Source: Fragilaria crotonensis
Taxonomy: Eukaryota > Bacillariophyta > Fragilariophyceae > Fragilariales > Fragilariaceae
NCBI GenBank assembly: GCA_022925895.1
Contig: JAKSYS010000656.1
Span: 1 to 34,848, forward strand
DNA: 34,848 nt
Direction of reading: 5' to 3'
Of the stretch, positions 6,068 through 28,076 are shown one piece after another (position 1 is the stretch's first letter; each line of letters begins with the position of its first letter). Under the pieces are notes generated by a model. That model saw only the letters and a list, made by a program, of their open reading frames with translations. It was not told the DNA's origin and made no database searches. Position numbers and translations under genes: made by a program.

Positions 6068-6093
6068 CATCAGAAGGTGCAATATGGTAACTA
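6068..6093 (+). repeat. Left terminal inverted repeat, outer transposon
   Basis: Starts CATCAGAAGGTGCA. Positions 17-26 again match the right end in most places (at, g, taacta). Weaker matching continues to about 40 bp. Confidence 0.8.
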
Positions 6094-6512
6094 AATTTTC
6101 ACATGTTCAGTGTTACCGGATAATGGTGTCCGTCTTTCCTGTTCTTACAATGTACATGGTCGAGTAAACAAATATGTTAGCTCAACAATATATTGTTACT
6201 TTTAACCATATCAGCAACATATTGACTTGTTTCATAAACATTTATGTTAACATATTTTGCTTCTTGTTACTTTCTTATAACGACAATACACCATCTTTGT
6301 TAAGTGATTCCGTTGTAAAATGACCATATTTGTTGTCGTTTATGTTGCTTAGTAGATATATATGCTGTTGACTATGTTTCTTTGTAACTATATATGTTAC
6401 TCCTAAATTCAATTGTACAAATCACAATTGTTGATTAAATCCACCTATATTGTTTCATTACGAGTTGCTGATGTTGTTGTCACTTCTAACGAGAAGGCAC
6501 CCGATGCAACGT
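6094..6512. repeat. Left subterminal repeats, outer transposon
   Basis: AT-rich and without a gene. The motif tatgtta/tgttaac and variants such as atttatgttaacat or tatatatgttac recur about every 30-40 bp in both orientations. Such subterminal arrays are typical transposase binding regions in CMC-type elements. The same motif recurs near the right end. Confidence 0.6.
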
Positions 6513-8100
6513 CTAGTCATCATCTGAGTCCCAGTCCGCCTCGACAGGCACCATTGCTTCCGCTCTCTCCAACGTGTTATTGGGCGCTGCACCACCTGCA
6601 TCTAGCTCGTCATCCTGATTATCACCAGCATTCTTCTTTCCAGCGCTTGCCCTGCAGAAACGCATCAACTCCTTTTCCATTTGCTCGGCTTCCGGACACG
6701 CCCTGTCCTCTTCAACCACCTTGCGCAATGCATTGAACTGGCTAATTCCGTCGCGACTCCACCCACTGTACTTGCATTGTCCCGTTTTTTTTGTATACTT
6801 TCCCGCCATTCTTCTTGCTTTCTTTTGTATTCCCTGCCCGCTGCCTGTTTCTGCTTCTGTTGTTGTGCTGTTGTTTTCCGTTCTTGGTCCAGTGCCTCCT
6901 GCCTCCTCCTCCGCTACGACTTTCCACTTCTCCAAGTAATTGTCGATTAGCAACAAACCGAAGGCTTCGTCGCTCACACTCACAATTTTGATCCATTGCT
7001 CTCTCGCGCCGCCGAAATGAGCTGTGTTGTTTTGCATTTCTCAAGACGTTCGCACCACAAACACATTCCAAGAAGTTGTTGAAGAACCAGAAGAACGCCC
7101 TTTTTCCCTTTCTGACGTAGATCTCTGAGCTTGCAGAATTCCTCGAATGTGAAGAACTCTTCACCGCGCTTTTGAAGTCTTTGATTGCATCCCTTGCAAT
7201 TTGGGAGCCGGACTGTTCGCAAGTACTTCGTTTTTGGTTCAACGCCTTAGTGAAACATTTTTCGTATGTCAATTGAAACACGTACGGATTCTTGGGCCTC
7301 TCCACCTCTCTCACCTTTTGAAAAGCCTTGGTGAATGATGCTTGACTGGTTACAAACTTGATCCTACGGAACAAGTTGTTTTTGACAAATATCGTAATCC
7401 GCTGTGCCACATTCTTCTCCACTGTCGGAACTTCCAACTCTGCATTAAACTGCAACTCCGCGGCCTGTAATCATTTGTTGCCCTGCTTGGGGCTTTGACG
7501 CCTGAAGTTCCGTCCTCGTCCTCGCTCGGAGGATCAGCCGCACCTTCCTGGGCACGGCGGCTCGACTCCTTACGATTCTGTTGCTGACGTTTCAAGGAGT
7601 TGCTGCGACGACGAGAATCCTCGTCATCGCCCGATGATTCGTCATCTGGTGAGTCATGAATAGCATCGGGGTTCGAGGAACTTTCTTACCCCCGCCTCGG
7701 TATCATCATCCCTGTCGCCATCAGTAGATTTGTAGGACGAGTCATCATCCGAGTCCTTTCGTTCAGAACCCGGGTTGTTGCGTGGTGGGGGCGGAGCCCT
7801 TTTTGCTTTTGCCCTGTTTGTTTTCTTCCTCTTTGCCTTGCCGCCCGAACCAACAACACGCTTTTTTCCCGGTTTCTCCAGCTCAACTGTCTCCACAGGG
7901 TCCGTTTGCTGTACTGTCTCCAATAGTTTTGCACGTTTTGCCGCCTTCCTTTTCTCCTCTTTCAGTTTCCTCTTTGTCCGCGCCGTTGGTGTTTCGGGTT
8001 CACCGTTCCTGTCTAGACGAACGCGTCCGCCTTGTCCTTGTTTGCTCCGAGTGCGCGTTGCTGGTGAGGATTCCAGAATGTTTGTCACCACTGGAGGCAT
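6513..8100 (-). CDS. GWS accessory protein of the outer transposon (frame-disrupted)
   Basis: Function unknown. Fragments in several frames read as one gene. It starts at the ATG at 8098-8100 (MPPVVTNILESS) with a long charged lysine-, arginine- and aspartate-rich N-terminus, likely disordered and nuclear. Next is a segment with VKNNLFRRIKF, then SDEAFGLLLIDNYLEKW. Near the end comes the signature SGWSRDGISQFNALRKVV followed by EEDR and EKELMRFCRA, and the protein ends in an acidic tail. The same three blocks in the same order occur in the gene at 20023-21280 of the inner element, so this is a conserved transposon-borne family. An accessory or structural role in transposition is inferred. Frameshifts lie near 7680, 7460 and 7030. 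The gene ends about 440 bp inside the left terminus. Confidence 0.72.
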
Positions 8101-9239
8101 GACGGCTGCAATGGACAAGTACAAAAAGCAAGCAATGGGTTAGAAACAAGTCTGACTGGTACGTTTCAATTCGCAGCAAGTGTGAGTTCAATAACAAGAT
8201 TGCAATTTTTAGTCATGTACTCTTTTTTTTGAATCAGAGAACAGTTTTGGAAGCGTGCACTTGTTGTCCTGTTTGTTCATCATGTAACTGTACATGATTT
8301 GAACATAAATTTATTATGTTCAATTTTAACAATAATTTAACATGTGCATGTCATTTATGTTGTTTGAATGTACTTGCGTGTTCACTACATAACGTCGTAA
8401 ATGTACAGTTTCATCTACTTGGATGGATATGTGTAAGGTTTTGAATATATACGACATGTGTGTAGTGCAGTCTTGTTTTGCATGGGCGGCCTCGCCAATC
8501 ATGTATCGTCAGTACTGGTAAATGTCGTACGCAGCAGTGGTACTATTAGTTCGTGTATATATGTTTATTAGTAAGGTGTATACAAATATATTTATTAACA
8601 TATCTTTGAATATGTGTGTCGCGTTGAATACATAGGTGGATTATGAATCTTATGACAGTTTGAGACACGAATCATAAAAATTCGACTACTGTCGATACGT
8701 ATGCTGCAGTACAACGGCCATGTAGCAGTATGCAGTCCAGTCATGGGAAACTAATAAATCATACATACATGTAAATAAGCATTCTCTTTTTTGACTACTA
8801 AACTTGATTAAGTACAACATACTTATGCGATGTGTATGTCATTTTATTATACATATACACGGATACTTAATTAACATTGCTACGAATTAAATCTATGTAT
8901 TAAAACCATGTATATATGGCTGTACTCGTGCAATTACTCTAAGTAAATGCACCTCATTTAAAGGTCTTGCTTGGAGTTCCCATGTGTGAAGTTTCCTTTT
9001 TTTGCATAGCACGCAGTGTATCTTGTTTTGCCTGTTTTCTGCGCGCACTGACACCAAAAATCACAATCTGGTGTCAGAGTACTTCTATGAAGTACTTCGT
9101 TCATTGATTGTGTTTCGCAACATAACGTCGCCGTCGGATCGTTCTCGCTTCCTTTGAGACAAATTGACAGTCCGCGCCAGGAAGCGCGTTGATTGCTTTG
9201 TCAAAAAGGACACGGAACTGGCATTGTGCGGCTCACTAG
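8101..9239. other. Intergenic region of the outer transposon, left of the nested insertion
   Basis: No gene is supported. Upstream of the GWS gene the sequence is AT-rich with many atgtt/acatg motifs, and promoter elements for the minus-strand gene would lie here. The last 150 bp become more GC-rich, like the genes of the outer element, until the change near 9240. Confidence 0.5.
9048..9097. repeat. Two adjacent perfect hairpins
   Basis: The first arms are ctgacacca (9048-9056) and tggtgtcag (9069-9077). The second is agtacttc-tat-gaagtact (9079-9097). Both stems are perfect (9 and 8 bp). Role unknown. They lie about 140 bp outside the inferred left end of the inner transposon. Confidence 0.65.
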
Positions 9240-9254
9240 CATCTAAGGGCCAAA

Positions 9255-9560
9255 AATCGAAATAATGCAGTACTTACGAATGCTCAAGTTCGTACAAACT
9301 TAAAAAGGTAGATATTTAGCCGATTTTAGTACATAACCACAATTTTGTTTCCATATTTTTCCACAAGCTCATACATCCGTACTCGTTAATATACGTGTTT
9401 GTCTATTTATTCAAATTAGTCGTTCTACGTGTTTCTCAACCTATGTACTAATCAGTACCAAATCACGTCTAAGGATTCGGATTGACATTTGAGTTGGTAT
9501 TTCTGAAGTCAATACGGATAAATGAGATTTGTGTTTCTTCCTTATGTGTGCGCTCAAACA
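9255..9560. repeat. Left subterminal repeats, inner transposon
   Basis: Recurrent short motifs: tacgaatg, gttcgtac, catccgtac, attagtcgt, ggattcggatt and caatacgga. The same family of motifs fills 21466-21690 at the other end, and differs from the tgttaac motif of the outer element. Confidence 0.5.
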
Positions 9561-9744
9561 CGTCATCCCTGTTTGTCAGTATGCATGACCAGTTTTCATT
9601 GGTTGTCCATGAATTAATGTTGATATTGTTAGCCAGTGTTGTGAAAGCAGCCGTTTGATGACACACCCACTTGCAAACACGCAGTGACGCAAACACCACG
9701 TTTATTATCTCTCACAACATAAACAATTCAATCACTCTCAAAAC

Positions 9745-12588
9745 ATGTCAGGATTTGTATGCTACAACCCGCATTGTATGAGCCGTCACAAACTGTTCAC
9801 AACAGAAAAGGCATTCACAATCCATTTTCAGCGGTCACCGACATGTTTAGCTTTTCTCCGTCGCGGCCATTCAACAACCACAACACCAGTTGCGCAATAT
9901 CGCGTTGACGCAACCTTTGATGAAAGCGTTTTACAAGTACCAAACGTCCCAAGCATTTGCGTTGCGAAGTGGTAAATGACTTGTACAATCGTGCAGCTCC
10001 ATCGTCGTTGAACGCACTGCCAGCATTGTTGCCACCCGTCATTCATATGACGGAATCACCGTTTGATGATATAAATGACATTCAAAATCTTGTGGATGAA
10101 CCCAATGATATACCTGAATGTCCAACACGTCATGATAGAGTTGCCGCATCACAATTTATGTTTTCTACGGATCAAAAATGGACCATTTCATTGTTAAAGA
10201 TATTGGATGACATAAATGCGCCTGATTATGCGTTTGAATCGGTCTTAAATGGGCCAGACATGCCCACGCAGATGGGTACTCATTTAATCCCGTCGGTGGG
10301 CAATCGCGATTGAAAAATGTGGATGTTCTGTTTCAATCTGTGACAAACGCACAGAGGCTGTTACCTGCGGTTGTCACTGTGGAGGTGCCGCACGGACCAC
10401 CGTGCGATGTCATCGCTTATGAATTCGCACCGCAATTACTTAACTTGTTGCAAAACCCGTCCATCATGACTGCTGAAAATCTATTGATTGATTTGAACAA
10501 TCCCTTGGTACCATATCAGAGCCCTGATGGCAGACTTGGGGATGCGCTTTCTGGGAGTGTGTATCGCGATGCATACCAACGAATGATAACGAATCCGGCA
10601 CGACAATTATTTGTTCCCATTATCCAATGGATCGACCGCACACATGTGACAGGTAATGCCCGATTTTCACTGAAACCATACATGTTCGCGCCAGCTATTT
10701 TTAAAGAGGAGTTTCGTCGTAAGCTACAGGCCTGGGGATATCATGGCTTCCTCCCAAAAGCAAAATTATCATCCGCACAAAATCAAACTAACATGAAACA
10801 AGGTGACAATGTGCGGAACTATCATGCCCAGTTGGATGCAGTGTTAAGTTCATTTACTTCGGCCGGTCCCTATTTAATGAATGTATCATTGCCAATTGGT
10901 CCCCAGGGAATCATGCAAGTGGATGTCGTCACTTGTATTTTGTATGTCATTCAAGACATGCAAGAAGGTGACATGTTGTGTGGTCGATTTGGGTCACATG
11001 GAGCAGGCATTCAGCGACATAGTCGTGCGTGTGATGTCGATCATGAAAATTTGGATAATCCTGAGGTCCAATGTTCTATGCTTTCAGCCCACGATATTGC
11101 AGCCATTGCGCGTGATCCCAACGTGGCAACTCGAAAACGATGGTCACAACATCGTTTGAATAATGTCTTTGATAGCATTCCGATGGCCGACCCAATTCGT
11201 GGAATATATGGTGCAACACCGGTTGAAACCATGCATGCGTTTCGTAAAGGCATGATCGAAATGGTCACGTTCTTGATTCTTGAAAATGTCCCTCCCAGCC
11301 AGTTGGCGGCGTTGGACGCCCTTGCAATTCGGTTTCACAATACGCACCGACAAACAATTCGCCGAACGTTTCCTGCAACGGATTTTAGCCAAGGTATCAC
11401 AAATTTGACAAAAATTTCAGCAGCGGAACGTTTGGGTTTGGTATTTTTGTTTGTAATTCTGGCACAATATGATGAAGGATGGCTGATTTTAGAATCCACG
11501 TTTGAAATGCGGCGAGTAAGAGCCCAAAGTGCTGATAAAAACGCTGCAGCCGAAGAAGCTGCCAACCTTCCTGCTGTGATTTCTGTCTTTGAGGCAATGT
11601 TATGTTTTGATCAATGGCTCAATAAAACCTCATACTGGACCCCGCAGCATCATGCAGAATCCAAAATGGTTGTTCAGAATGCCATCAAAACATTAATGTC
11701 CATGTGTGTAACTGACATTCCACTGTCCAAAAACAAATCGTGGAAGTTTCCAAAGTTTCACGAATTGTTGCATTTACTCGACAATATGGAACGGTTTGGT
11801 GCTCCAATCAATTATTGTGCGCAACGTCCAGAATCACTGTTAATTCCAGTTGCCAAAAGCCTGGCCGCCGAGCACAAAAACGTCACAATGGATCTGCTTA
11901 CGAACTACAATCTGCGCAACGCTTGTCGTATTCACTGATGATTAATGCAGTCTATACCAGAATATGGGACACCACAAAAGGTGCCGCTAACGTTCCTGAG
12001 AACACCAATCCTCCGACCAGCACTGGCAAAGCCACTTTTGGAACATTGACATGTGACTTCACAACTGGATATCGGTTGTGTTGGCATACTCAAACCAATG
12101 TCTCATTGATGCACATTCCCGATACTGTATTGCAGTTCTTGAGTTACCAATTTGGTTCAAAGGTGCATGTGTGCACGGAGCTGAGGCACAACGCATCCAC
12201 GTATCGATGCCATCCATCATTCCAATCTGGAGGTCCTGTTTATGATTGGATGAATGTGAACTTCAAAACCAAAACGTCCAACAGAGTCTCGGTGCATCCG
12301 TGCCGTTTAACTATGGTTGTTGTTACCAACAATCTGCAACCCATTCGACTGGTTGTCCAAAAAGGCTTACACACAACTGGCATCAAATCAGTGCTTCTGA
12401 CCGAATGGTTAATGTCCGACGATTATACCGTTATTGAACCTTCTGATATAGATGGCCCCTGCTTTGCTATTTTGATTAAGGATGATGGCTCTAAAATTTT
12501 GCAAACGTTGCCTCGCCATTTGTGGGCATCAGAATTTACTGAACCTGTGGACGAGTCAAGCAAATGCTATCTCAAAACAGGGTCATAA
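9745..12588 (+). CDS. Transposase of the inner element (zinc finger plus DDE-type, frame-disrupted)
   Basis: About 950 codons over four frame segments, with shifts near 9955, 10305 and 11855. The N-terminus has a C-x4-C...H-x5-C finger (CYNPHC, then HFQRSPTC) for DNA binding. The core shows three conserved acidic sites: IDRTHVTG (Asp at 10634), QDMQEGDMLCG (Asp at 10955 or 10970) and QRPESLLIP (Glu at 11831). These are a plausible DDE triad. GIYGATPVETMH and FPKFHELLH...FGAPINYC resemble fungal Plavaka transposases. A C-terminal segment after 11940 (STYRCHPSF...VYDW) also has a counterpart in the outer transposase. AATAAA overlaps and follows the stop (12587-12597). The gene converges on the cargo gene with 36 bp between stops. 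Whether it belongs to CMC/Plavaka or KDZ is uncertain. Confidence 0.8.
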
Positions 12589-12597
12589 TAAAATAAA
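12587..12597 (+). terminator. Polyadenylation signals of the inner transposase
   Basis: Two overlapping AATAAA hexamers at 12587-12592 and 12592-12597, at the stop codon, in the 36-bp space between convergent genes. Confidence 0.5.
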
Positions 12598-12624
12598 TGT
12601 TATACTTAATTCATGTAAAAGGTT

Positions 12625-15600
12625 TCAATTTATTTCTGTCATCAATGTCATTTTTTCAATCCTCTGCTGTCGCTGTCCTTCATATCGAAAAATGTAACCC
12701 CGCCGGAATCCAACAAACTCACTCTTCACCAATGGAGTAGAGGTACAATAATTCAAAGCCTCTTCGCAAAAAGGGAGGGCTTTAACCTCATTCGCATCAT
12801 ACACAAATCCTCCATGAATGCAAACGGCATGACAACAGCTACCGTCCGATGCAGTCAGAACACCAAGCAAGAGGTTTCGCGCATCGAGGTCAACTCTCCA
12901 ATCGAATTGTCGAGGCAAACGCCGAATCACTATCCAAGTCGGAAGAATGCTTCTCGCATGTTTCACAACATTTTCCAAAGCATCGACAACTGCCCCTTTT
13001 AAAATTTCTTCACCGAAATTGTCAATGGTAGATGCCTCGTCGCAAAAACCTAGCGAAAACAAAGCTGAAGCAAGGGCCTTCGACACACACAAATCTTTTC
13101 CATCAGCTTGATTGAAGTGGACAGCAGGCGCCCCCATAACATTGCAAGTTTGGATGGTGGTGCAAGTGAGATGGTTTGTAATCACCGACGGGCACATCCA
13201 CGAACCCACGTAGATCCCCCATCTTCAACTCCTTCACAAATGGTTCACCAAATGCCATACTGACAAACTCTTCCTCCAAAGTTGTCTCCTTATTATTTTC
13301 CATTCGACCTAACCATTTCTCTTTTGAAGTAACAGGCTTTCGAATGACTGACTTTTGCCATTTTGCCTCTTCCTTTTCAAGACGTATTTTCTCATGTTTC
13401 TTGATGTTCATTGGACTTCTTGCAACCTTAGAAGGTGTGGGTGGTGCCTTTTGCTGTGACATTCGGCGTCTGGGAATTGTCTGTTCCAAAAGCGAAAGTT
13501 TGTCGATTCGCTCCGCTGGAAGGTCAGCAAATCCAAGCTTCTTTCGCCTCTTGGCATTCGTTACATCCTTCTCATTTATGACCTTCTTTGTTGCTTCATA
13601 ATCAATCACATGGCGAACTTGGGGAGGCACATATCGCACACGAACAACTTTATGTTTGGCGATTCTTACTTCAACATCACGTGGAACGTCAGTCCACTTG
13701 TCTGTTTGATGCATGTTGATAATATGTTGAATGTCCACATCTGCATATTCGCTTCGGACCCATTCTTCATCGACTTTTAGTTCTTCTTCAGAGACCACCA
13801 TTGTTTTTTGGATCTGTTTCGCTTGGTTCTTGATAAACCAAGCGAGCATAAAAGCTGTTGTTTGCTTTTTCAAAGCGGAGCCCCTTAACCATCGTAAGGC
13901 GAGTAAACATGAACTCGTTCGTCAACTCCTTTGTAAACTGAGATCGTTCATTCTTGATACCTTTAATCAACTCACGGATGTATTCTTTCTTGGTTTCGGA
14001 GCAATCTCGGGCTTTCATTTGCTTTGCCCAAAACTCAATCGTTTTCTGGTGATCCTTTTCACTTGACCAGTTCCACTTTTCAAAACTCTCTGCAATAAAT
14101 TTTGAGAGTTCCGCTTTGAAACCTTTGTCGATAGTGACAATTGTATCATCTGCAGTCGCTGTAGCATGGTATTTGTGATAGAAGGCCCCAATCGTAGTTG
14201 TCGACTGTGTAGAAACCTTTTGCTGTTTGGCTTCCTCAGTGAGCACGATGTAATCATTGTCGACATCACCATCATCATCATCGCTTTTGAGTCTTCCTTT
14301 CTTTCGTTGGGGTACCACATTGTCATCTTCAAACAGAACATCATCAAGATGCAATCGTTTCAACAATTCGCCATCTTTGCGCTTCTTTGTGGGGGTTCGA
14401 ATGTGGAGTTTGATGGGTCCAAGTTTTGAAGGATCCTCGATCTTCTTGATTGTGTACCCTGGTTCTTCATCTGCCGACTTGTCTTTTTTTTGTTGGTGTG
14501 TCTTCAATTTCGATGTCTGCAACGTCGTCTTTTGTTGGTGTGTGGTCGATTCTGATTTCTGCAACAATAGTGTCAGGATCGATTATTGTCAAATCATCAG
14601 CAGAGGCTCTTGCGATTTCATTTGATTGTGAAGCAACCTGCGTTGCAGCAGCCATCGAAGGCTCTGTCTCTGGCGACATGAAATTGATTTCATTGTCATC
14701 AACAGTTTCCCTTAATGCAGCAGAGGCTTTCGCATCTGGCGACATTAAATTGATTGTCACATTTTCATCCAGATTCATGGATACACCAGCCCCTCTCTTT
14801 GCTGGTGATGATAAATCAAAAGCCTTATCTGCCTTTTCTGCTGGTGAAGATAAATCAACAATGATATTTCTGTCGGGGCTCTGGGAAACATCAATTGCAG
14901 ATGAATCACCTTGAGCTGCAGCTTGGTGTCTTTTCTTTTTCTCTTCATCAATTTGTTTGCGCAGTAGGCGAAGTTTTGGCTTGGACAATGTCTGGCGCTT
15001 TTTCATTGTGTCGAAATCGGGCCAAGCAAGTGTACTCTGCTTTGTTTCCAAGTATAATGGATTGACCGAATTGTTCTTGTTCACTCGTTTTGGGAACACC
15101 TCATATTGCATAGCAGCCATCCGATCAAAGAGAACAAACCATTCTTGGCGAAGCATAGTAAGATAATCTGCCAATATCAAGTCGTTGTTTTCCGTCGGGA
15201 GTGGTTCAAAACCGTCTGTCAAAGTAGGCAAACCACTCCTTTGTGATGTTATCCTGATGTAGCTCCCAATTCTTCTGAGGACCAAATTGCTCATCGAAAT
15301 TCATTCGTTCCACTTTTTGGGTGCAAACATTTCGCAATATAATCCCGACAGCAGCAACAACTCCCACTCCACAGTTCCATCCATCGTCTTGTCGTGGGGA
15401 GCAAATTTGCTTCTGGGAGACGTAAGGCCGGAAAGCTTTTGGTTCCAAGCATATTGCCTTGGGACGTTTTTCCAAATGGGGAACACCATCTCATAGCCGC
15501 ACCTTGCGCAGGCATGCTTTCTTGGTAAACTTTGGTGCTGTATGACAAGTTCAGGAACCAAATGATGCCTGTATCAATGGAGACATCCCGCGTCCCAAAC

Positions 15601-17626
15601 GGATATTTGCTGCAGTATCGGAAGAAAAATGGTTTTGGAGAATTGTCTGCATTCTCAATGTCACCAACGTTGTCACGAATGTACCCTGGATTGAAGACAA
15701 AAGTAACACTCCAGTGCTCACCATCCTCATTTTGAGGGAACACTAATACCTGTTTCGAAAGCAATCCGGGATTTCTCTCGATGATTTCATGCACCACAAA
15801 GTCTTGCTGAACTTGTTGTGTACGTTTAATCTGTTTCGAACCTGTTCCCAAAATCTTTTGGACCAAGGCTTCCGAGTTCCTTTTCATCCATTGATGCATT
15901 GTCTTTTTCCAATTGAAGGAGGGCTTTGTAAGATGCGTGCGCCGCAAAACCTTTCTTCAAGACGCTTCCAAAATAAACAGACAAAATGAAAGTTGCATCT
16001 TCATATCTTCCATCACATGTCAAAATCGAAAGCATCAAGTTTATCTCACCACTCGAAAACCATTGTGTTCCTTCCGATTCACTATGTTGCTTGCGACGGA
16101 CCAGCGTCATTTCGCCTTTCAAGAACAACGAATTGGCAGGCAACAAAGGCTCAAGTGGACCAGGCAAGAGTTTGCGCAAAAGCGGTAGTGACATAAATAG
16201 ATTGTCCGCATCTTTTCGATCGTAGACGAATCTTCCACCACCTATCAAAAGTGGAGGTGGATACTGGCACCAGAATGGTTGGGTCCTCGGTTCAACATTG
16301 ACTGTGTCTTCATCATCTTCCTTGTCCTTGGCGGCATTTGCAGAATTGCGGTAATTCAATTCACCATGGCGCAAATGCATAAGCATTGGGTGCTTTGAAT
16401 CATTTGTTGAGCGCAAAAAGGATGATGGGGTTTGGGATTTCAATGCTGTTTGCAAATGCAAAGGAAGCATTTTAAACCCGTCATCTGCTTCACTTTTGTT
16501 CAACTGACGAAAACCAATCATCGTGTAGAAGTGAAATGCTGATGGTTCTGAACATTGAAGGAACACCTCAATCGTCTTGACATCCTTAATGGATGCACAC
16601 CGTTTAATAACTTGAACCATCATGAACAAACCCACTCCATTGCGGCGCCACGATGTTATCGAAGGCGGATGTGCTGTCAAATGGTGCGTCACTCCCAAGA
16701 AAGACACAAATACCGACATTGCTCCATGATCGTTTGGATCGCGATGCAATTGAAAAGTAACCGCTGACACTGTGATCAGGGATGAGGCATATGGCGTCAG
16801 GGATTTCGGTAGAACACCCTTTTTGGCAACCCGAAGAGCAAGCATCATGATTGTGATATCTTGTTTCATGGCCCGATCGATTTGTTCTTCCATTGACGGA
16901 GAGGGATGGAAAATCTCGGTGTAAAATTGTCGAGCGCAAGTTAAGAAATTCTTTGGAGCTGTTCCAAAAGAAATGTTTTCGACGCATTGCGGCCCCAAGA
17001 GAACATGGCGAAAATGCCACATTTTATTGCCAATGTCTCCAGGCTTGAATATAGCCTCCGCAAACCGAAAGTGTTTGAACCAATTACGGAATGGAGGTAA
17101 ATTCTGTTCCACAAAGCCGACATCCAACCCACGGATATACGCAGCAATTATGCCGCGCTTCTGTCCATGATTAAGTTGTCCAGCCAACTCATTAATTCCG
17201 TCAAACTTATACACCGAAGCTAATGTTGAAACTTTCGTGGGTGTACTTGGAACAGGAACCACAACATCGACGTCACCTTCAATAAGTTTGTGGATAACCT
17301 CAGGAGTGGGCGTTGTGCGGTACTGCCTCACCAGCAGCCTTGGCCATAACCTCAAGTCCTTGCATGGGATCGGCACTTGCAAGATTCGACAATGCCAATG
17401 CAGAAGCTGCCAAATCTGCATCACCATCCAATTCAACAGGAGGCATTTGGCTTGTCTCAGCTCTGGCATTTGCCTCTGAGGACGACGAAACCAAACTATC
17501 ACTGTTTTCCATCCTACCAATCATGAGTGTTGTCTCAGCATTGGTGACTGTTTCTGATGCGGCCGTGGACTCAGCTTCACTATCAACTTCACGAAGCATT
17601 TCACTCGTCAAATCTTTCCCACTCAT
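12625..17626 (-). CDS. Cargo protein of the inner element: GNAT + Ulp1-like protease + papain-like domain (frame-disrupted)
   Basis: One gene of about 1,660 codons, starting MSGKDLTSEML. Order: an acidic serine-rich N-terminus; a GNAT-type acetyltransferase region with the acetyl-CoA motif RRNGVG (about 16645) and the SAFHFYTMIGF motif (about 16520); an Ulp1/C48-like cysteine protease with EHWSVTF (His about 15715) and QDDGWNCGVGVVAA (Cys about 15372); a long lysine- and acid-rich linker with TPTKK/SP motifs; and a C-terminal part with DGKDLCVSKALASAL, then GSCCHAVCIHGGFVYDANE. Cys, His and Asp in that order suggest a second, papain-like peptidase fold. Frameshifts lie near 17320, 15840, 15395, 15215, 14485, 13865 and 13170. 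The one at 14484-14491 is in an 8-base T run. The substrate is unknown; deSUMOylation or acetylation of host chromatin or of the transposase is inference. Confidence 0.72.
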
Positions 17627-17689: not shown

Positions 17690-17849
17690 CTTGAACGGTC
17701 CTTTGCTAAACAAAGGACTACTGCACCAACCGAGTAATGTGGGCTTTACCAGTAAGGCACGACGTGTAGGCACACTACTCTTTCGAGCAAGATCCTCGCA
17801 GGTGACTGGTGTCCACTGTCCACACACAAAACCGAGCTGGTGCAGCAAC
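17690..17849 (+). repeat. Upstream direct repeat, copy 1 (about 160 bp)
   Basis: Starts cttgaacggtcctttgctaa and ends ggtgcagcaac. It is repeated 271 bp downstream with only a few differences, mostly a small deletion and single bases near the end. It lies just upstream of the cargo gene start at 17626, so it may be part of its promoter. The internal stretch cctttgctaaacaaagg is itself an inverted repeat. Confidence 0.9.
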
Positions 17850-17960
17850 AGAGAGAAGCAAGGAATGACAGGAACAATAATTGCGTCCTCGCAACAACTG
17901 TGGCCAAACAGCACAATGTCCTCCAAATCAATCAACAACAATGTACCAGGCGTCCAATTT

Positions 17961-18115
17961 CTTGAACGGTCCTTTGCTAAACAAAGGACTACTGCACCAA
18001 CCGAGTAATGTGGGCTTTACCAGTAAGGCACGACGTGTAGGCACACTACTCTTTCGAGCAAGATCCTCGCAGGTGACTGATGTCCACACACAAAACTCGA
18101 GATGGTGCAGCAACT
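17961..18115 (+). repeat. Upstream direct repeat, copy 2 (about 155 bp)
   Basis: Second copy of 17690-17849 in the same orientation. The 111 bp between the copies are not repeated. Near identity indicates a recent local duplication. Confidence 0.9.
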
Positions 18116-20022
18116 GAACAATCTTATCAATCAATAACGACGACAATGCTTGCCAGCTGAAGTTGTTGGTTGTAAAACTGACAAAACAGATCAAAATTGG
18201 AGTGAGTTATTTCGATTGTGATGCAGCAAAGCAGTTTCCTCTTGGTTGCACAACGGTAAGATCTTGATCAGTACCAGGTACAGTGATAAAGAGTACCTAC
18301 TGTCAAAGGAACAAGCGCGTAGTAAATACAACACAGTGCTCCTACCACCATGCAGTAGAGGCCACGTGTTTTTGGCGCGTACTACCAGTAAGTACTCACT
18401 GTACAAAAACAACAGTGCTGGTACGACGATGCCGTAGAAAACGCGTGGAAGTAGAGTTTTTGTACATCCGGGTTACCCTGCGGCAACACACCAAAATTCC
18501 CCTGATCTCATCCATTCAAAAAGAACAACAACCTTGTCATCTTCAAAGCCAAAACTCTCACAGATTCATCTCATGACATAAGAGGATGGGATGTTACTTA
18601 CAGAAACGAATTTGGTGAAGAATTGAGAAAAGAGTGAATAGAAGTGTGTCAGTTCACTTGAGGATCTGACACTGGATGGAGTTGTGTACCAAAAATGTGT
18701 TCGACGCATAACGGTCGTTTAACGTCATGTTAACATCGATTTAACGGATAATGTACCGAGAAGGTTTATACTACTTCTTCACACAAACGCAGGTTTTGAG
18801 GTGCATTAACTAGCAGGGACCGCAGTGGTTCGATGCCCGCAGCCCCAAGATCGTCAGTTCCATTTGCGTTCTCGAGGAGCCTTGGCGGTTTGTTTAACAG
18901 CAAAAGCAAATTGAATTGCGACATATATATAACGGCACGCCTACAAGACGAGTATCACTATCAACACCGAAACCACACCAAGTAACGATGCATCGAAACA
19001 CAATTGCAACACAACGGTTGATTCCGTGATATAACCGCAGTAGAAAAAACAATGGCAAATACAAAATGAAGAATTTCAAAGCCATTTGCTACGCGAAAAA
19101 AAGCGATGGAACAATAAGCAATCACACGACAGCTAACCACCATATACGACAACCGCCAACATATGGAACGACCGGTACAGCAGCAATGTGTTTATCCTAT
19201 TGTGATGCCGCATCTGCAGAGGCCCACATAGGTTACACAAAATTGTCTAACAATGAACACGTCTGTATTACGCATTAGCGAGACGGCGAGCAATCAAAGT
19301 AAAAAGTAAGAACAATACAGTCGTATTGCAGACCAGTAGAAGTACCGGCCGAAGTAAAGTACTTACTAAGAACTCAACGATAGTAAAAAAGGGCAATGAA
19401 AACATTTGATGCAAACTACTAGATTACTTTCACGGAAGTAGCGTTGAATCGTGTGAATCCAGTATCTTGTTCTACGTTGAATACAGCGGCAGCACGTTAA
19501 TTTAATTTACCGTTTTTTGTTCTTAGCACGGAACCAGTTCACAGTGCCATCAATTTATTACTGAGATTTTAATGCGGGAAACAATGTTCAAATTTAAATA
19601 ATGCGCGGCACGCAATTAAGGTTTGACTTTCAAATAAATCGTAAGTCGTAACTTTTGTTTGAACCACAACACGTGTTTTGGTTCACATTTATACATGCAA
19701 CAAACCACATGTTGTCATACAACATATATCTACGTTGGATGAAATGATCAATGTTTGAATGAGTTTGCATTAATCGTGGAATTATAAAGACTTACTACAG
19801 CACGTTTTACATGAGTTCATAAAACGCAAGTTTGCTTCAGATGAACGGAATGCATCATCGCGGTCAACTGGACCCATCATCCGTTTTGGATGATGAACTG
19901 CCTTCGATACTTACCAAAAACATGTTGTATATGTCGAGACGAAATGATTGCGCAGTTGCTGAGGCCGTGCAAAGTGATCAAAAGTACTATATCATCAACA
20001 ACAACACCAAGTAACGCCGATC
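18116..20022. other. Long intergenic region of the inner transposon
   Basis: No gene is supported; frames are under 100 codons and unpatterned. It separates the divergent cargo and GWS genes, so both promoters must lie here. The region is AT-rich. It holds an imperfect inverted repeat (18278-18303 against 18386-18404). Confidence 0.55.
18278..18404. repeat. Imperfect inverted repeat with an 82-bp spacer
   Basis: ggtacagtgataaagagtac at the left reverse-complements to cagtaagtactcactgtac (18386-18404) apart from a four-base loop-out and one mismatch. It could be a small foldback element or a regulatory structure. Confidence 0.5.
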
Positions 20023-21280
20023 ATGACTGGTTATTCTCCCATGCCATCAATGCGAGACGGCGGAGAAACAGAGCGTGCGTTAATGCCTGGAAATGTTGCA
20101 ATGGTTCCTCCTCATCCTCTTCCGCTTAACATGCAGCTTCAAAACACAATTGCGTCGCAACGCATGATGGTGAAAGAGTGTGTCAAAACAAAGTTGTTCA
20201 GTCGTCTCAAATTTTTAAAAAGACTTGCATGGTTTATATGATTTAAGACGTGGCACCGTTTGTTCGATGATTGTTGCTAATTGCAATGTAGCGACAGAAG
20301 ACGTTGATGAATACTGGTGGGCAGACATGCGTAAACTTGTTGTTTGTACTCACACAGATCGTCGCAACAACGTCATCAAAAACATGCGCTTAAGATTCAG
20401 AGGTACGTACAATTTTATGAATGGCTCGAGTGCAATCATATGACTAACGTTTGGTTTTGTTGTGTCAACGCAGACGGCATGTGTGGTAAGATACCGCACT
20501 TTAAAGTCAACAATGGTCAAAATGCCGATATGGACTACATGTTAGCTATGCGAGACAATTTGGTTCATTATGTTCATTTAATTGATATCTATGCGCCTTG
20601 CATTGTGGGACACAGTAATTGGAATGACAAGGCTAACATGATGAGTTATTGTCGTTCCGATGCTTGTGTTTTCAATGAATATGTGTTCTCGTTAAGCGAA
20701 GCCTTTATGCTTCTTGTGTTACTAAATTACACAGAGACATGGATGTCTGAATTGGCATTGGAACAATCAAAGGTATGACGATAAAGTGCAATGTTTTGAT
20801 TTTGTTCGATTGCCGTGCTAACACATTGCTATAAATATGGCCGATACTTCGTTACAGATTCAAGCACATGTTAACGCTGTTGCGGGTCAGGTCCCGCGAT
20901 TGTGGTAAGTTCTTGATTGCTGCGTGACAATATCGCAAGCATGCTACAAAGCTAACACTTGGTGCAATGGTAGGCACCAAAGTATACATTGTCACGAAAA
21001 CAACGCAACGATACTAATGGTGTAGCTGGGATTGGATGGACTGAAGATGGCATGAATAAGTTTAATGAGCTCTACGATTCCGTGAAAGAAGACAGGATTT
21101 CGCGTGGAGTGATGTTTAATAATCAATTGCTGAATGTTTTTGGAGCGCCAACGTGTTGTGAAACCAAATCCACGACGTGCAAACAACCGTAAGCGCAAAG
21201 CGATGCCACGAGATGATATGGGATGTATTGACACCGTGCTGTGCACAAATGAAAATCCAGACTGCATTGTGCCTTTATAA
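20023..21280 (+). CDS. GWS accessory protein of the inner transposon (spliced, frame-disrupted)
   Basis: Function unknown. Homologue of the gene at 6513-8100: VKTKLFSRLKFLK matches VKNNLFRRIKF, SEAFMLLVLLNYTETW matches DEAFGLLLIDNYLEKW, and GIGWTEDGMNKFNELYDSV with KEDR matches the GWS block. A 71-bp intron (20403-20473, GTACGT...CAACGCAG) joins in frame across Asp-Gly. A second intervening segment starts GTATGA at 20773 and ends at an AG at 20973; a 47-bp exon inside it (20858-20904) is possible but the phase does not fit. A shift near 21145 leads to a basic tail ending NPDCIVPL at 21280. Another single-base shift lies near 20225. The start at 20023 is the first ATG of the conserved frame; this version lacks the long charged N-terminus of the outer copy. 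Confidence 0.68.
20403..20473 (+). other. Intron in the inner GWS gene (71 bp)
   Basis: Donor GTACGT at 20403, pyrimidine-rich end and acceptor AACGCAG at 20473. Removing it restores one open frame across the junction, which supports a nuclear eukaryotic gene. Confidence 0.7.
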
Positions 21281-21357
21281 TGTGATTATTTTAATATTGA
21301 TTAAGATGCAGATATTTACCACACACCACTTCATAAATAGACAGTACGATACAACAT

Positions 21358-21439
21358 AATCAGGCGGTGCTAAGTAAAGGAATATGAAATGCAAAATTAA
21401 GGATTAACTAGCGACGAAAGATCAGGAGTACGCCTGATT
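21358..21439. repeat. 82-bp segment with 9-bp inverted ends
   Basis: aatcaggcg (21358-21366) and cgcctgatt (21431-21439) are perfect inverted arms. It lies downstream of the GWS stop, and could be a tiny element remnant or a transcript-end structure. Confidence 0.45.
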
Positions 21440-21465
21440 AGATTACGTTGTTTCGTGAGAAGAAA

Positions 21466-21690
21466 CTTAGGATTCCGTATTCTAAATTATACCGAATCCA
21501 TCAATTAGAACTCGGGTGTATCAAAGAGTATTTTGTTGGATTCCGAATTCTGGACTTCGGAACATGTGCATACAAAAGTACGGAATACGAAAAAAAAACT
21601 AGTACGTGAACAATAATGTGGCATTATTTTGTACGGATCTATGCATAATTTAATTCGTATAAATCCAAACAAAAAATAGGGATATGTGAC
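21466..21690. repeat. Right subterminal repeats, inner transposon
   Basis: Dense short motifs: ggattccgtattc, taccgaatcc, ggattccgaattc, gtacggaatacg, gtacggatc and aattcgtataaatcc. They mirror the motif family at 9255-9560. Confidence 0.55.
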
Positions 21691-21747
21691 ACGAATTCAG
21701 GTCTTGCTTTTTAGATGTACCTGCCAGGAAGCAGTAGAGAGCCCGAT

Positions 21748-24173
21748 GTCGCCAAATCGACGCGACGTTGGTTGCGTTGGCGTGGATGTTGTGGTGGAGA
21801 ACGGGATGACGGTTGTGGCGGAGAGGAAGGTTGTGGGAGTGGGGTTGGCGAAGACGAAAAAGCTCGCAAAGAAGAGGAAAAACGCGAAGAAGAAGGCTGC
21901 GGAGACCGGGAATAGGACTTCCCCAACTATGGCGTGTGTCAGGAACCTGGGGAACTCGCCACGTGTTCCGGGAGCGGACAGTGGGAAATTCCTTCCTACT
22001 GGGCGCGACGAGAGGCAGAATCGCCCAACTCATCAGCGCATTATGACGCTGTTGTCCATGGCCGTTGTTCGGAGGAGAGGATTGCATTCAGGCGGAGATT
22101 TGTGAAGGCCATGCGGGGTGGTGATGGGAGTGCCGCGAATTCTTGTGCTTTACTCCCGTGAGCGTCATTGCAAAGGCTTTCGGATGCAAGCCGTTTCAAT
22201 TGCGTTCCGCTGCCGACATGTTCCCGGAGTCCGGACTCCAGTCGGAGTTCCTCAACGAGTTCTACGTGATGGACGTGATACTCAATCGGGCTCCTTCACC
22301 GGCCGTTTTGACTGGCGGTGGGAAGGGGGGGAGGAGTGGTGGTGGCGGCCGTCGTTCGCATTGCGATGACTGCGATGCAGTCCGTCATGCCCTGTCACGC
22401 AAACCGGAAGACATTGGCCCTGGGATGGATCATTTCTACCGGGCTGCAATTCTGTTCCTACCTCAGTGTGGGGTGTTCTATTGTCACCGTGACCGTCACG
22501 TTGGGGATGCTGGCGTGCCCGGCACGCTGAGAGCGTATGATATGAGCTGGCTCCGCTTGCAGAGGACGGAGGGAACAGAACACGACTTTCCGTTGTATGC
22601 CTTTGGTGGTGACAGCTTTGTGAGGCGGTTCTATTCGGATCGCGGTCTAGGCGACAACCGCCGTGTTTCTGCGTGGAGGATCTCCACGGGGTACCTACCC
22701 AGTTCCCTACAGAATCGGGTTGTGCAGGGCCGTTCACAATAGTGATGCTGAATTACCTGCGTTACCACCGGATTTCATTGCTGGCGTTGACCTGCGGACT
22801 GTCCCTGCTGACTACCGCGCTCATGAATTCCGCAACAAACTCAGAAATTCTAGTAGTGCGAAGTTTGATTGCCGGCATTACGTTGACGGCAGCCACCACT
22901 ACAATCTGCAGGAGTCTTGCTGGATCATTGATCCAGAAACTCACTTTGTTGATGTTCACGTTCGCGTCGATGGAATTCCAAACCGTGAGTCTGTCGTTGC
23001 CATCCGGAACGTAACAAAGATCAGTGCGTGCGATGACCACCTTGAGTTGCTGGAGCGGTTGACATTGCGGTGTCGTCAGATCCGAGTGTCGGGGGCGAAG
23101 GGCACTGCCAGGGCGAAGTCGTCCGATGTCGGTTCAATGTTTGCACTGGGCACCAGAATCGAGAAAAAGAGTCCCCGACAGGCGTTGCTGTTCACAGCAA
23201 GATTCCGTACGCAGCCAATGGATGTGTTTCGGATAGTGTCCTCGGGGTCTCGTGGTTGACTTGGCAACCCTTGGGAGTCGCTGTTTCCTGTGGTCTACTC
23301 CGTGGTAAGGGACACCGAGGAGAACTCGGGACTGAGTCCGGTGCCACCGATGGATGGCGTTGCCCTTCCGACGGGTGGGTCGTGCGGGCGGGGTGGGTCG
23401 GATTGCGATGATGAGAATTGTGTTGACGATGATGACGATGACGAAAGAGACGGTGGCGATTGCCTTCGCAAGGAACTTCGGAGGAAAATGGAAGCGCAAG
23501 AGCGTAGACAACGGGTCGGATACACCGTCGACATGAGCATAAACCTGGGCAACTCCTCGCACTACGACGTGAACGATGCCTCGCAGGGCTATAGTGTGTG
23601 GACAGAGGAGGTGCTGGGCCTTGGGAAGAACTGGTATTTTGTTATCCCCAGTGTGTGTGGCCTGCGACCGGGCACGAAAACCAAGTTCAGTGGCATGGCG
23701 GTGAAACTTGGCCACGGCGTGGCCATCAGCTGGGATGGCAGGGTGATCCGGCACTGCACGTCGGTTTCCTGTCCAGACGGGATGGAACGTGGGTTTGTTG
23801 CCAGGAAGAGGTCTCCCTTTCGAAATTATCTTTATGGAACTTTCACGGCAGCAAGGAAAAATTGTTGAGGCGGGGCGTGCCGCGTGTGCCGAGGCTTTCT
23901 GTCCCGGAAAGCCCTCTCCTGTTAAAGCGGTGGTGGATCGCAAGAAGCGGCCGAACAGGAGGCGGAGAAAACCCCGTGGGGGGGGGGCCTCGGATCGAAT
24001 CCGGGGATGCCGTGGTTGCGGGTGTCGGTTGTCCTGCTGTTGAGTTCGCTTCTGTTGAGCCGACTGTTGAGCTCCCCTCCGTTGTGCCGCTGGTTTTTGG
24101 TGGCTGGCAGGTGCGGGCAACTGACCTGGAGGTTGGTGGAAGGTACAGGATACCAAGGAAACAAAAAAAATAA
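21748..24173 (+). CDS. Cargo protein of the outer element, 2-oxoglutarate/Fe(II) dioxygenase-like (frame-disrupted)
   Basis: GC-rich gene in several frame segments. The likely start is the ATG at 21748, followed by a basic lysine-rich stretch. A middle part contains FVKAMRGGDG and FGCKPFQLRSAADMF. The core (23290-23868) has VYSVVRDTEENSG, then NSSHYDVNDASQGYSVWTE (His at 23560, Asp at 23566), WYFVIPS, and HGVAISWDGRVIRHCTS (His at 23752). An HxD followed 64 residues later by a His on a DGRxxRH strand, with Arg soon after, is the metal-binding layout of double-stranded beta-helix dioxygenases. TET/JBP enzymes, known cargo of KDZ transposons, are one possibility, not proven. Frameshifts occur near 22120, 22700, 23290 and 23868, and in a run of G at about 23980-23990. 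It converges on the transposase with 77 bp between stops. Confidence 0.62.
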
Positions 24174-24250: not shown

Positions 24251-27200
24251 CTACCCCTTGTTTGTCTTCACGGGAGCTTCCCTTTTGCGTTTCAAGTTCC
24301 CTATGGACTGTTGTGTGGCGGTGGCCTTCACAGCCTTCGCAGCCTTTGCAGCCGCTTTCTCTGTGGCGGTGTCCTCCCTCTTCTTCTTGGCGGCAACCTT
24401 TTCGGCCTTCTTTGCAGCAACCTCGGCTCCAAACTCTTCGGTCTTGACCCTATGCACCTCGGCCACTTGGCAGGCGGCTGACAAATTCTTTCTCGTACTC
24501 CTCTTCAAACCAAGTGTCGTCGTCGACGTCGTGTTCCAAATCGTGATGACACTTATTGATGAGAGAATCCCACGCTTGGGGCCACTCCGCCTTCCGACGG
24601 ATCAAAAACAGGTGACACCGCTTGCGCCTCGGCGCTTTCTCTACTCCAATGGGGGCGTCTTCGATGCCGAGTACTGGAGATAAGATTGACTTGACGTCCA
24701 CCAGGAACAAGGTGGGATGTCTCTCAGGTGAGTGGAAATGTGGGGTGTAGCGCCCTATGAGAGTGTTTGGAGTGTCGAGGTCACCAACGGAAACTGGATC
24801 AAACGAATGGGCGACAGCGTACAATCCGGCTTCCAAATTTTTCTGCCCATTTGCTTTGATGTTAATGCGCTCTCCATTTGGAAGCCCGCGAAGATCAACA
24901 AAGGTGTGGATGAATGCTGGATAATTGCGAGGTATCCTTCCCACTTGATCATTGCGCTGTCGTTCCAGGCTTTGCCATCGTAACAGGGGTGAGCGCGGTA
25001 CTTGTTGCCCTTACGGTCGGTAAACAATGTGAAGCATGGAAGTGAGTGCTGTGGCACCTTGGGCAAGCAGTGTTGACTCAGGAAGTCCATCACTCGGGTT
25101 GAAAGGTGGGCTGTCTCCATGTTGTCACCGGGAGATGGGTGAGTCCAGCGGCACGCTGAAAATTCATCACCAGTCTTCCATGAAAGGTTGAAGTGTCGGC
25201 CACCCTTGCCGTCAACAAGTAATGCAACGGGTTGACCTGCTCTGTTGCAGGCATCGCTTTTTTTTGGTGTCCATGTCCGCGGAAGCAAGCGATACAACAA
25301 GATTCTCAATGTAGCGATGGGCAGCTTGCTTGGTGAATGAAACGGCTCGTTTCTGGGTGTTCCGTGATGTTACCTTTGCGAGTGGAATGTGGGCTGACTC
25401 CGCGTACGAACTGTTTACGTTCTCTGGGACGCCGTGGTCAAGGATGTCCTCGCACAGATGCAAGACCAAATGTGTCTTGATCGTGTTGTTTCCCATTGCT
25501 CCTGGGCGGGGTGCCACTTCAGCGACAACACGCATCAGCCACTGAACTGCCACATGTGAACGCTTCACCATTTTCTTTGGAATGGATGGTTGCTTCATCC
25601 ATTGATGCCACACTAGAAGAGCAGTCACGATGTCAATCAATCGGTGACATGGTTTTCATAACGAAGCCTTTGGTCGGGAACCCCAAGTCTCGGTTCCTTC
25701 TTCCCGACATCGAAGATAGCGCGGAAGCAGGTGGTGTGCAACGCAAATAACTTCACCAAAGGCACCCGCCATCTCGTGTCCCATCAGATTGGTTCCTGAT
25801 GAGAATCCCTTGGGAAAGTTGGTTCGTGGGACGTCGCGGTCACTCTGTCTTGACAGTTTGCGGCCCAATTTTGCACACAGTTGATCGTACTCCTTCAATG
25901 CATTGGACTTGGGACCGGCTTGGGTGGAGAAGCCTGCAGGCAGTATTTGAACCAACCAAGAGAAATCAAGTGCAGCATCTCACCTGGACAGGCACCAAAA
26001 ATGCCCCGCTGATTGTGCAGACCAAAACGAACCCTGGCAAAGCCGTTTTTAAGGTAGGTCTGTGACAGCAATGGAGCTCATTGGTAAAACCCTTGCGTAC
26101 AAGGGTGTCCATTTTCTGGGAAGGCGGTGGGGAAACTTAGACTTGAGTAACCAGTCAAGTATGTAGGGCACTCACAGATGCGACAAAGTTGTTTGATCTG
26201 TGAAAATCGGGCGGTGTAGTGCCCACATAGGCGGTCGTGACCCTCTGTGTCACCAATGATGAACGGGACATACGGGTGGAACACGACGGGGTGCATTGTT
26301 CCGTTGTACTGCAGATTCCATCGGAAGCCGTACTTTTGTAACTGCAAAAACCAGACTCTTCGAGAATAAACTGGATCTGCATGTGCATCTCGTTGAGGAG
26401 TAATGTCGCCCAACTGACATTTTCATCAGGGCACCGGTGGGTTGTTGACGCGGTGCACACCCTTTGGCAAGTCTGCGGGTGCATTGAACTTGGGATCAAT
26501 TTCGGCGTCCGATGGGAGGTTGGCGGGGTGCTGTGATTGATGTATCAAGGATGCGCATGGCGCTTGGGAGGCGGCGCGTAATGTGGTTCAAAAGGCCGTG
26601 CGAGACTGTTATGGGCTCCATCTGGAGCCGTCCGGCCATGTCGATGTGGGTCTTGTCCATCGCCATGACACAAGGTAGGAGCATGTCAACACCGGGCTTC
26701 TTTATCAGGGCATCGTACGTCTTTCTATAACAACGACCTGTGTGTATGTCACCAACATCGGAGGATGCTTGTGGTGCAACAAACGGATCCTTTGCTTCAT
26801 CAAAAAAATAATTTGTGTCCTGATTAAGTGTGGGGCATGAGAGAAGCGACGCGAACACCTCGCGGGCATCAAAAAAAACCATGGACACTATCCTCTGCGT
26901 GTAAGGGAGATACAATTTCTTCTCCTTGGGGATCAGTCCATTCATGTTATACCTTTGGTACAACTTGGCAATTACCTTCTCACGAGTTGGTTGAACACCC
27001 TCGCGGAACACAGTAAATGCTTTGAGAGGACAGTGCAGCTTTCTAAGGAGATCCAATAACTCAATTAGGACCTTCTCCTCCTGGGAAAATCGCGCGAGAC
27101 CTAGTGGGTTCGCTCGCAGCTTGAACAGTTCCAAACACAAATCCAACACACCAAGATCAGGACCCTCCTCGTCCTCTTCTTCAGTTTTTTCGAAAGCATC

Positions 27201-27550
27201 CTGATTGCCAGCGTCGCCATCATCGTTGTCGTCAAACATCACAAAGTTGTCATCGTCAACTGCGTTCAAATCGTTGACGTGATGCAGAGGATCCCCGCCT
27301 CTCCTCTTACAGATGCACCGCTCCCACGGAGTGAAGTCCTCGAATTCGGGAAAGTGGAACGATTTCCGCCTTGCGACGCATTAGTTGTGTTTTCAATGCT
27401 GTCGTTCGGGATGGTGGGTGCCACTGTTGCAGCTGCTGCATTGACACGTGACATGTAGAATGATTTACATGCCAAATTTTGAGCGAGGTGGGACTGAAGC
27501 CTCTTGAAACTCTTTCCACAAACGGCACAAGCATTAGTTGACACTGACAT
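24251..27550 (-). CDS. Transposase of the outer element (zinc finger plus DDE-type, frame-disrupted)
   Basis: Starts at the ATG at 27548-27550 with a C-x2-C...H-x6-C finger (CAVCGKSF, then SHLAQNLAC), followed by a serine-rich and an acidic stretch. The core has MDKTHIDMAGR (Asp at 26655), IIGDTEGHDRLCGHY (Asp at 26249) and YAESAHIPLAK (Glu about 25399), the proposed catalytic triad. GIFGACPGEMLHL, NFPKGFSSGTNLMGHE and LVLHLCEDILDHGVPENVN match equivalent sites of the inner transposase and of Plavaka-type enzymes. The C-terminal segment (YRAHPCYDGKAWND, then FVDLRGLPNGERI) is followed by an alanine/lysine-rich tail with AAKKAEK repeats, possibly a coiled nuclear tail. Frameshifts lie near 27300, 26500, 26420, 26080, 25960, 25750, 25660, 25260 (an 8-T run), 24910 and 24500. 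The finger side faces the right terminus. Confidence 0.76.
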
Positions 27551-27775
27551 GCTGATCCCTGCTGATGATTTGGTTAACGCGCAGTAATGAGAACAGAACA
27601 CAAATGTTTTATTGTGATCAACAAAATTGGCGTGAAATGATTGGTGTACAATGATTATTTCCAATGAAGCCAGAAATGGTTCGTTCGTAATCCCCTCCGA
27701 TCCAATAACAAAATGTGGGATGTAAGATACATACCGTTCAATTGAAAAAAGGAGTGCGTGATAAGCGTAGGTCAT

Positions 27776-28050
27776 TCAATAAACCATGATGGTAAGATCA
27801 GAATATATATGATGAATTTTAACCACTTTATTTGCTGTGACGCATAATAACCAAACATATTATGTCTTACAATGCTTTAATTTGATATTTTGTTAACGTA
27901 ACAATCAATATTATTACTTTCAAGTATATACTGTAAGAACAAACTAATATAATAACTTCTAAGCAAAAATGCATTCAATTGTAACAAGATAATTGCGACT
28001 AAAGACAATTTATGTATCACATATCACAAAAAAGTTAACATATAATGACA
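27776..28050. repeat. Right subterminal repeats, outer transposon
   Basis: AT-rich, no gene. Motifs tgttaacgtaaca, ttgtaaca, agttaacatat and agttaacat repeat those of the left end (6094-6512). The transposase promoter probably lies between here and 27550. Confidence 0.6.
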
Positions 28051-28076
28051 TAGTTAACATTCTGCACCTTCTGATG
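28051..28076 (-). repeat. Right terminal inverted repeat, outer transposon
   Basis: Reverse complement begins CATCAGAAGGTGCA, identical to the left end for 14 bp. Flanked outside by TT (28077-28078), as on the left (6066-6067). Confidence 0.8.

Follow-up and report, generated by a model that had tools for sequence, protein, structure and literature searches.

Two nested Plavaka-group transposons with different cargo genes in the diatom Fragilaria crotonensis

The stretch of DNA analysed here, referred to below as the window, comprises 34,848 nucleotides of the diatom Fragilaria crotonensis (GenBank assembly GCA_022925895.1, contig JAKSYS010000656.1, abbreviated C620), and all genome searches were carried out in this one assembly of 62.1 Mb and 881 contigs. 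The assembly encodes silicon transporters (19 matches to Pfam Silic_transp, best E 4e-193), in keeping with a diatom. The window contains a nested pair of related DNA transposons, both of the Plavaka group, and the pair in turn lies in a Copia-like long terminal repeat (LTR) retroelement. Each transposon carries an accessory gene, GWS, at one end, a transposase gene at the other, and a cargo gene that converges on the transposase. We consider it reasonably probable that these are Plavaka transposons whose transposase has GWS as a partner and whose cargo genes would serve against host silencing. The features are as follows.

5825 to 34565, minus strand: Copia-like LTR retroelement, with LTRs at 5825-6052 and about 34342-34565, recognised from direct repeats and open reading frames (ORFs), its class assigned by eye
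6068 to 28076, no strand given: outer Plavaka-type DNA transposon, with terminal inverted repeat (TIR) CATCAGAAGGTGCA and target-site duplication (TSD) TT; copies L001-L003
6513 to 8100, minus strand: outer GWS accessory gene, frameshifted in the window, identified from ORFs, own-genome copies and a GWS profile
21746 to 24173, plus strand: outer cargo gene D, dioxygenase-like, frameshifted in the window, its start codon set by likeness to other copies
24251 to 27550, minus strand: outer Plavaka transposase with an N-terminal zinc-finger-like motif, frameshifted in the window
9240 to 21717, no strand given: inner Plavaka-type transposon, with ends CATCTAA..TTAGATG, TSD TA and an extra G at 9239
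9745 to 12588, plus strand: inner Plavaka transposase, in four overlapping frames in the window; 967 codons open in C147
12625 to 17626, minus strand: inner cargo gene N, GNAT by Pfam, with Ulp1-like and papain-like motifs that lack profile support
19800 to 21280, plus strand: inner GWS accessory gene, in several exons or frames, its left limit approximate

The nesting could be read directly from other copies in the genome. Homology of all three outer copies (C773, C110 and C649, i.e., L001-L003) ends at 9238 and restarts at 21718, so the insert spans 9239-21717 and includes a 2-bp TA duplication. The inner element also stands alone in C147, with 99.5% identity over 12.5 kb, the same CATCTAA..TTAGATG ends and TA/TA flanks; the window copy has one additional G at 9239. 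In the Copia-like element, the outer transposon separates the RNase H-like end (28201, identified by eye) from the 3' LTR, leaving parts at 5825-6052 and 28201-34565. The likely start codon of the outer cargo (21746) follows the inner element by 28 bp, and the insertion has therefore probably disturbed the promoter of that gene. Both window copies contain frameshifts, with the outer transposase and outer GWS broken too; in C773 the outer GWS reads almost as a single frame. Many frameshifts interrupt the genes of the two elements (6513-28076), at positions that differ between copies, and decay and assembly indels are indistinguishable among them.

The Pfam Plavaka domain (PF18759, cut-off 26.3 bits) was recognised in the inner transposase (46.7 bits, 3.3e-12) and in the outer transposase copy of C773 (28.2 bits, 1.5e-6), and the outer transposase fragment in the window fell just below the cut-off at 26.1 bits. 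The residues D, D, C(2)C, H(3)H and E, in the succession given for Plavaka in PMC12730594, occur in all four outer-type transposases checked; the inner-type transposase has S as the first residue of its C(2)C motif. The outer and inner GWS proteins gave hhalign E-values of 7.8e-8 over 94 columns and 4.8e-9 over 27 columns, each from a single pairwise profile comparison, and the two segments keep the same order in both versions. A first-pass annotation of this DNA had proposed a related backbone for the two elements; the domain and profile matches agree with this and show that both backbone genes are homologous between the outer and inner element. GWS has no convincing relative in Pfam, NCBIfam or the PDB.

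The outer element ends in 14 exact bases of inverted repeat, CATCAGAAGGTGCA, at 6068 and 28076 (47 nt at 74%), between TT/TT flanks. A search for ends in 14 sequences gave clear pairs in five, namely the window's outer element, C773, C869, C414 and C147, all with CATC..GATG ends and 2-bp duplications (TT, AT, TT, TG and TA, respectively) that lie within the two or three bp of the PlavakaB group. The C869 element is 9,885 bp long with a TT duplication and 16/16 matching terminal bases, and that of C414 is 9,393 bp long with a TG duplication and 15/16. Termini of PlavakaB type, CATCA..TGATG, are found in the outer element, C773, C869 and C414, from which the CATCT..AGATG of the inner lineage is a small departure. 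C829 has a weaker candidate (10/16 bases, TA), and no end pairs were found in the rest of the 14 sequences, many of them cut by the stretch fetched. The C414 element (L011, 221-9613) has intact ends, and its outer-type cargo is recognised only as an N-terminal part (165/808 positions) beside a repetitive stretch.

Gene spacing is also alike. The GWS stop lies 445 bp from the left end of the outer element and 437 bp from the right end of the inner one, the latter stop being taken from the frame of C147 owing to a frameshift at this point in the window copy, while the transposase ATG lies 526 bp (outer) and 505 bp (inner) from the element end. The convergent stops of cargo and transposase are 77 bp apart in the outer element (24171-24173 and 24251-24253) and 36 bp apart in the inner one (12588 and 12625). 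The earlier description of two nested elements with a common layout and similar terminus-to-gene distances is thus upheld.

Merging the searches with the Pfam Plavaka profile (80 matches), both transposases, both GWS proteins (the inner as a single exon) and both cargos yielded 116 transposase loci, comprising 48 outer-type, 41 inner-type and 27 recognised by Pfam alone. Only part of the candidates was scored (47/640 and 48/565 for the transposases, 75/523 for the outer cargo), and the counts are therefore lower bounds and the absences weak. The outer cargo occupied the convergent place at 29/48 outer-type and 0/41 inner-type loci, the inner cargo at 34/41 inner-type and 0/48 outer-type loci, leaving no crossed case among the 63 (29 + 34) scored Plavaka pairs. 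At the Pfam-only loci, three had the outer cargo, three the inner cargo and 21 neither. GWS lay at the far end or divergently upstream in 23/29 outer-type and 31/34 inner-type cargo-bearing loci, one of these 31 resting only on a match to the outer GWS protein. A layout variant, with GWS divergent and 1.3-2.3 kb upstream of the transposase, was seen at 14/116 loci; one of these, on C361 (L018, 862-4405), still has the inner type of cargo. The earlier annotation had allowed that the layout might be chance if GWS and cargo genes were rarely found beside such transposases, but within this genome both accompany them at many loci. Because cargo class tracks transposase lineage without a crossed case, the elements look like two old lineages, each with a fixed cargo, rather than a slot that swaps freely.

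The two cargos themselves are unrelated, with an hhalign probability of 0.7%. The inner cargo was recognised as a GNAT protein through Pfam Acetyltransf_10 at 23.9, 24.1 and 25.2 bits in three sequences (cut-off 23.6); the distant inner cargo of C449 reached 14.5 bits, under the cut-off, and there is a weak likeness to NAA50 (E 0.047). Peptidase_C48 was not listed at E<=1 for the inner cargos of C449 and C874. A 137-bp direct repeat (97%) at 17680-17816 and 17951-18087 lies within the inner element, close to the start of the cargo gene. Relatives of the outer cargo have open frames of 754 to 1291 codons, and in their C-terminal domain an HxD motif, two downstream histidines (112 and 125) and arginines (121 and 124) are invariant in 9/9 sequences. 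Fe(II)/2-oxoglutarate oxygenases show such a combination of HxD with downstream H and R, and the same residue pattern is described in the main text of PMC12730594. No Tet_JBP match was found among seven aligned outer cargo members, no relatives of this cargo were found among prokaryote contigs, and searches of viral contigs for the outer cargo, GWS and one transposase, the last used as a single query, gave no relatives. From the first-pass annotation, the difference between the cargos and the GNAT assignment were borne out, whereas dioxygenase, Ulp1-like and papain-like are best regarded as motif readings.

The outer cargo is not confined to Plavaka elements. At 32 of the 63 outer-cargo loci, a Plavaka-type transposase converges on the cargo from within 9 kb, against about 0.5 expected with uniform placement; nine have a match to a Mutator-like element (MULE) transposase within that distance (1.7 expected), 21 have neither, and one has a Plavaka-type match in the other orientation. 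The MULE is divergent at 2.9-3.6 kb in seven of the nine. C131 (L020, 3342-8546) and C87 (L022) share a Ulp1-MULE element with an 808-codon outer-cargo gene; in both, the frame of the MULE transposase includes a Peptidase_C48 domain, and the MULE profile scored 36.9 bits at C87 and 13.9, below the cut-off, for the C131 frame. Mutator-like elements with a Ulp1 domain are a known kind, and these two resemble them in the MULE frame with Peptidase_C48 and, in C87, long inverted repeats, but additionally carry the diatom dioxygenase-like gene. In C592 (L021), a different MULE (4.4e-12) stands beside a 754-codon relative. Target duplications of Mutator-like elements measure about 8-11 bp. The C87 element has inverted repeats of about 480 bp, with the 8-bp repeat TTAATCTA located 2 and 3 bases outside them and none directly at the ends. 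The MULE matches in C592 and C87, with the long TIRs and the 8-bp repeat in C87, allow these carriers of the outer cargo to be classed as Mutator-like. The outer-type GWS query had no match in L020, L021 and L022. Three more MULE loci were inspected, of which C32 (L025, residues 360-808 seen) and C165 (L026) contain the outer cargo; C49 had no outer-cargo match in the stretch fetched.

Trees of the outer cargo and the transposase were built with 13 taxa each, the former taking in the three Mutator-like carriers and the latter C364, C456 and the inner element. Among the cargos, the MULE-borne genes stand beside or inside one Plavaka group; the node joining C592 with Plavaka cargos has a support of 0.95 and its exact neighbour 0.31. 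This suggests that the cargo passed from Plavaka elements to MULEs, the direction being without proof.

CACTA elements encode a second protein, TnpA, beside the transposase, an arrangement comparable to that of GWS. In the explanation that we favour, the transposase would carry out cut-and-paste transposition with GWS as its partner, possibly a DNA-binding one as TnpA is for CACTA elements. The cargos may help the element to evade host silencing, a role proposed because of the fungal parallel discussed below and the selection acting on the genes. The outer cargo, as a putative 2-oxoglutarate/Fe(II) oxygenase, would have modified DNA or chromatin as its substrate, and the inner cargo would acetylate, and possibly cleave, chromatin or SUMO-marked proteins.

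Alternatively, the cargos could be part of the transposition machinery itself, involved in excision, target choice or turnover of the complex, rather than anti-silencing factors. Their recurrent position convergent with the transposase and a history largely common to both genes would suit such a role. However, the same position is filled by two unrelated proteins, and the outer cargo also rides with Mutator-like transposases of another superfamily, which together argue against a transposase-specific partner and make this explanation unlikely.

A freely modular slot, with frequent exchange of cargos between backbones as the first-pass annotation had proposed, is less likely again. Two cargos on one backbone and one cargo on at least two superfamilies would fit it, as would the differing placement of C873 in the cargo and transposase trees, though both cargos concerned are of the outer class. 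Against this, no pair was crossed in the part of the candidates that was scored, and the deepest split is common to both trees: C134, C414, C829 and C1 separate from the other outer-type elements with a support of 1.00 in the cargo tree and 0.86 in the transposase tree, and the branching order within this group is identical in both. The shared split fits a largely common descent after the two lineages had, long ago, diverged in cargo. Nor did a third cargo emerge when 12 Plavaka loci for which no cargo had been tabulated were inspected. Eight have the outer cargo (C123, C873, C869, C414, C134, C829, C1 and C87, with the cargo in C873, C869 and C414 also resting on sequence matches) and one the inner cargo (C476), and none of these nine judgeable loci has a third class. 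The other three were unjudgeable, C456 owing to the contig end and C23 and C364 (L006 and L007) because long retroelements, in which frames resembling reverse transcriptase were seen by eye, split their Plavaka elements. Free swapping is therefore not supported; cargo follows transposase lineage.

The cargos could also be passive, functionless captures of host genes. Gene capture is frequent in transposons, many copies are broken and some ratios of nonsynonymous to synonymous change (dN/dS, by a simple counting method) lie between 0.4 and 1.0. The divergent families nevertheless point to purifying selection. Between C829 and C1, dN/dS was 0.19 for the outer cargo and 0.16 for the transposase; it was 0.13 for the outer transposase (C773/C649), 0.14 and 0.22 for the inner GWS exon, and 0.30 (C874 vs window) and 0.36 (C874 vs C147) for the inner cargo. 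The MULE-borne outer cargo gave 0.15 between C131 and C165 and 0.34, on 13 changes, between C131 and C87. Synonymous change was saturated in three more pairs. Long frames remain open in distant families (808, 754, 873, 1291 and 1414 codons). With values of 0.15-0.19 for the outer cargo and 0.30-0.36 for the inner one, and purifying selection in several families, passive capture appears very improbable.

A chance neighbourhood or assembly artefact, for which the many frameshifts in copies might be cited, can be rejected as next to impossible given the exact empty site in 3/3 copies, the identical layout at tens of loci and the 32 convergent pairs among 63 loci where about 0.5 are expected.

Several observations weigh against the anti-silencing explanation. 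The outer cargo has no convincing family in Pfam, NCBIfam, PHROGs or the PDB: its best library match is an antitoxin model (E 0.0016, far under that model's cut-off), its best PDB match has an E of 0.018 over 44 residues, and a structure predicted from the window sequence alone was unusable (predicted local distance difference test score, pLDDT, of 36). Pfam Tet_JBP had zero matches genome-wide at E<=1, and the outer cargo has HxD, whereas the fungal Plavaka-borne enzymes are assigned in the main text of PMC12730594 to the PE type, marked by HxE. Pfam recognises neither the Ulp1-like nor the papain-like part of the inner cargo. Some dN/dS values are high, namely 0.43 for the inner cargo with its frameshifted end included, 0.57 for the outer cargo in C773/C649, and 0.45 (C110/C649) and 1.02 (C123/C87) for the outer cargo domain, the last with ends read in different frames and 0.70 in a recount from local matches; the high values stem partly from frameshift-affected pairs. 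The two trees also disagree on C873, which the cargo tree joins to the outer family (0.72) and the transposase tree to C123/C87 (0.98). Lastly, subterminal repeats to which GWS could bind are weak in the outer family, where the 9-mer AACAATATA occurs up to four times in C773 and the repeats in C869 and C414 show no excess over controls, and absent in the inner element, with no 9-mer present three times in its subterminal parts.

The closest known system is fungal. According to the main text of PMC12730594, PlavakaB elements in Agaricales carry TET/JBP dioxygenases, with CATCA..TGATG ends and duplications of 2-3 bp; all TET/JBP-bearing Plavaka elements described there are assigned to PlavakaB. 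The same text reports that TET/JBP genes moved between transposon superfamilies and itself states that their function is without experimental validation. The diatom elements share with these the Plavaka transposase, the termini, the 2-3 bp duplications and a dioxygenase-type cargo mobile between superfamilies. They differ from the PlavakaB elements of that account in their diatom host, in an outer cargo that has no Tet_JBP match and HxD in place of the HxE of the PE type, and in the alternative GNAT cargo, the GWS gene and the Mutator-like carriers. CACTA/EnSpm elements have a related DDE transposase (main text of PMC12730594), but the diatom termini are not CAC..GTG and the duplication is 2 bp rather than 3. 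Fungal KDZ elements likewise bear a TET/JBP dioxygenase cargo beside the transposase; as described in the same main text, however, that transposase has no sequence similarity to Plavaka and the duplications are 7-8 bp.

A dioxygenase cargo on such a transposon is not in itself new, as fungi are already known to have Plavaka transposons carrying an oxygenase-type gene (PMC12730594, main text). What differs here is the diatom host, a cargo that matches no described family, the GNAT alternative, the GWS gene and the Mutator carriers; the words Ulp1, diatom and cargo are absent from the main text of PMC12730594, and the open-licence literature searched showed no Plavaka family of diatoms that bears such cargos. 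A possible, rather tentative history is that the Plavaka backbone of transposase and GWS split long ago, that its two lineages settled on unrelated anti-silencing enzymes (a new oxygenase class outside TET/JBP, acting on DNA or chromatin, and a GNAT/protease fusion), and that the oxygenase gene later reached Mutator-like elements, so that unrelated transposons in one genome would share a counter-silencing gene, a situation that parallels the fungal one but would have arisen independently.

If the cargos do counter silencing, the link between Plavaka and oxygenases would exist far from fungi, and one backbone would carry two solutions of different chemistry. Two uncharacterised protein families would then become testable for effects on chromatin or DNA methylation in diatoms, and transposon-borne anti-silencing genes would be testable outside fungi.

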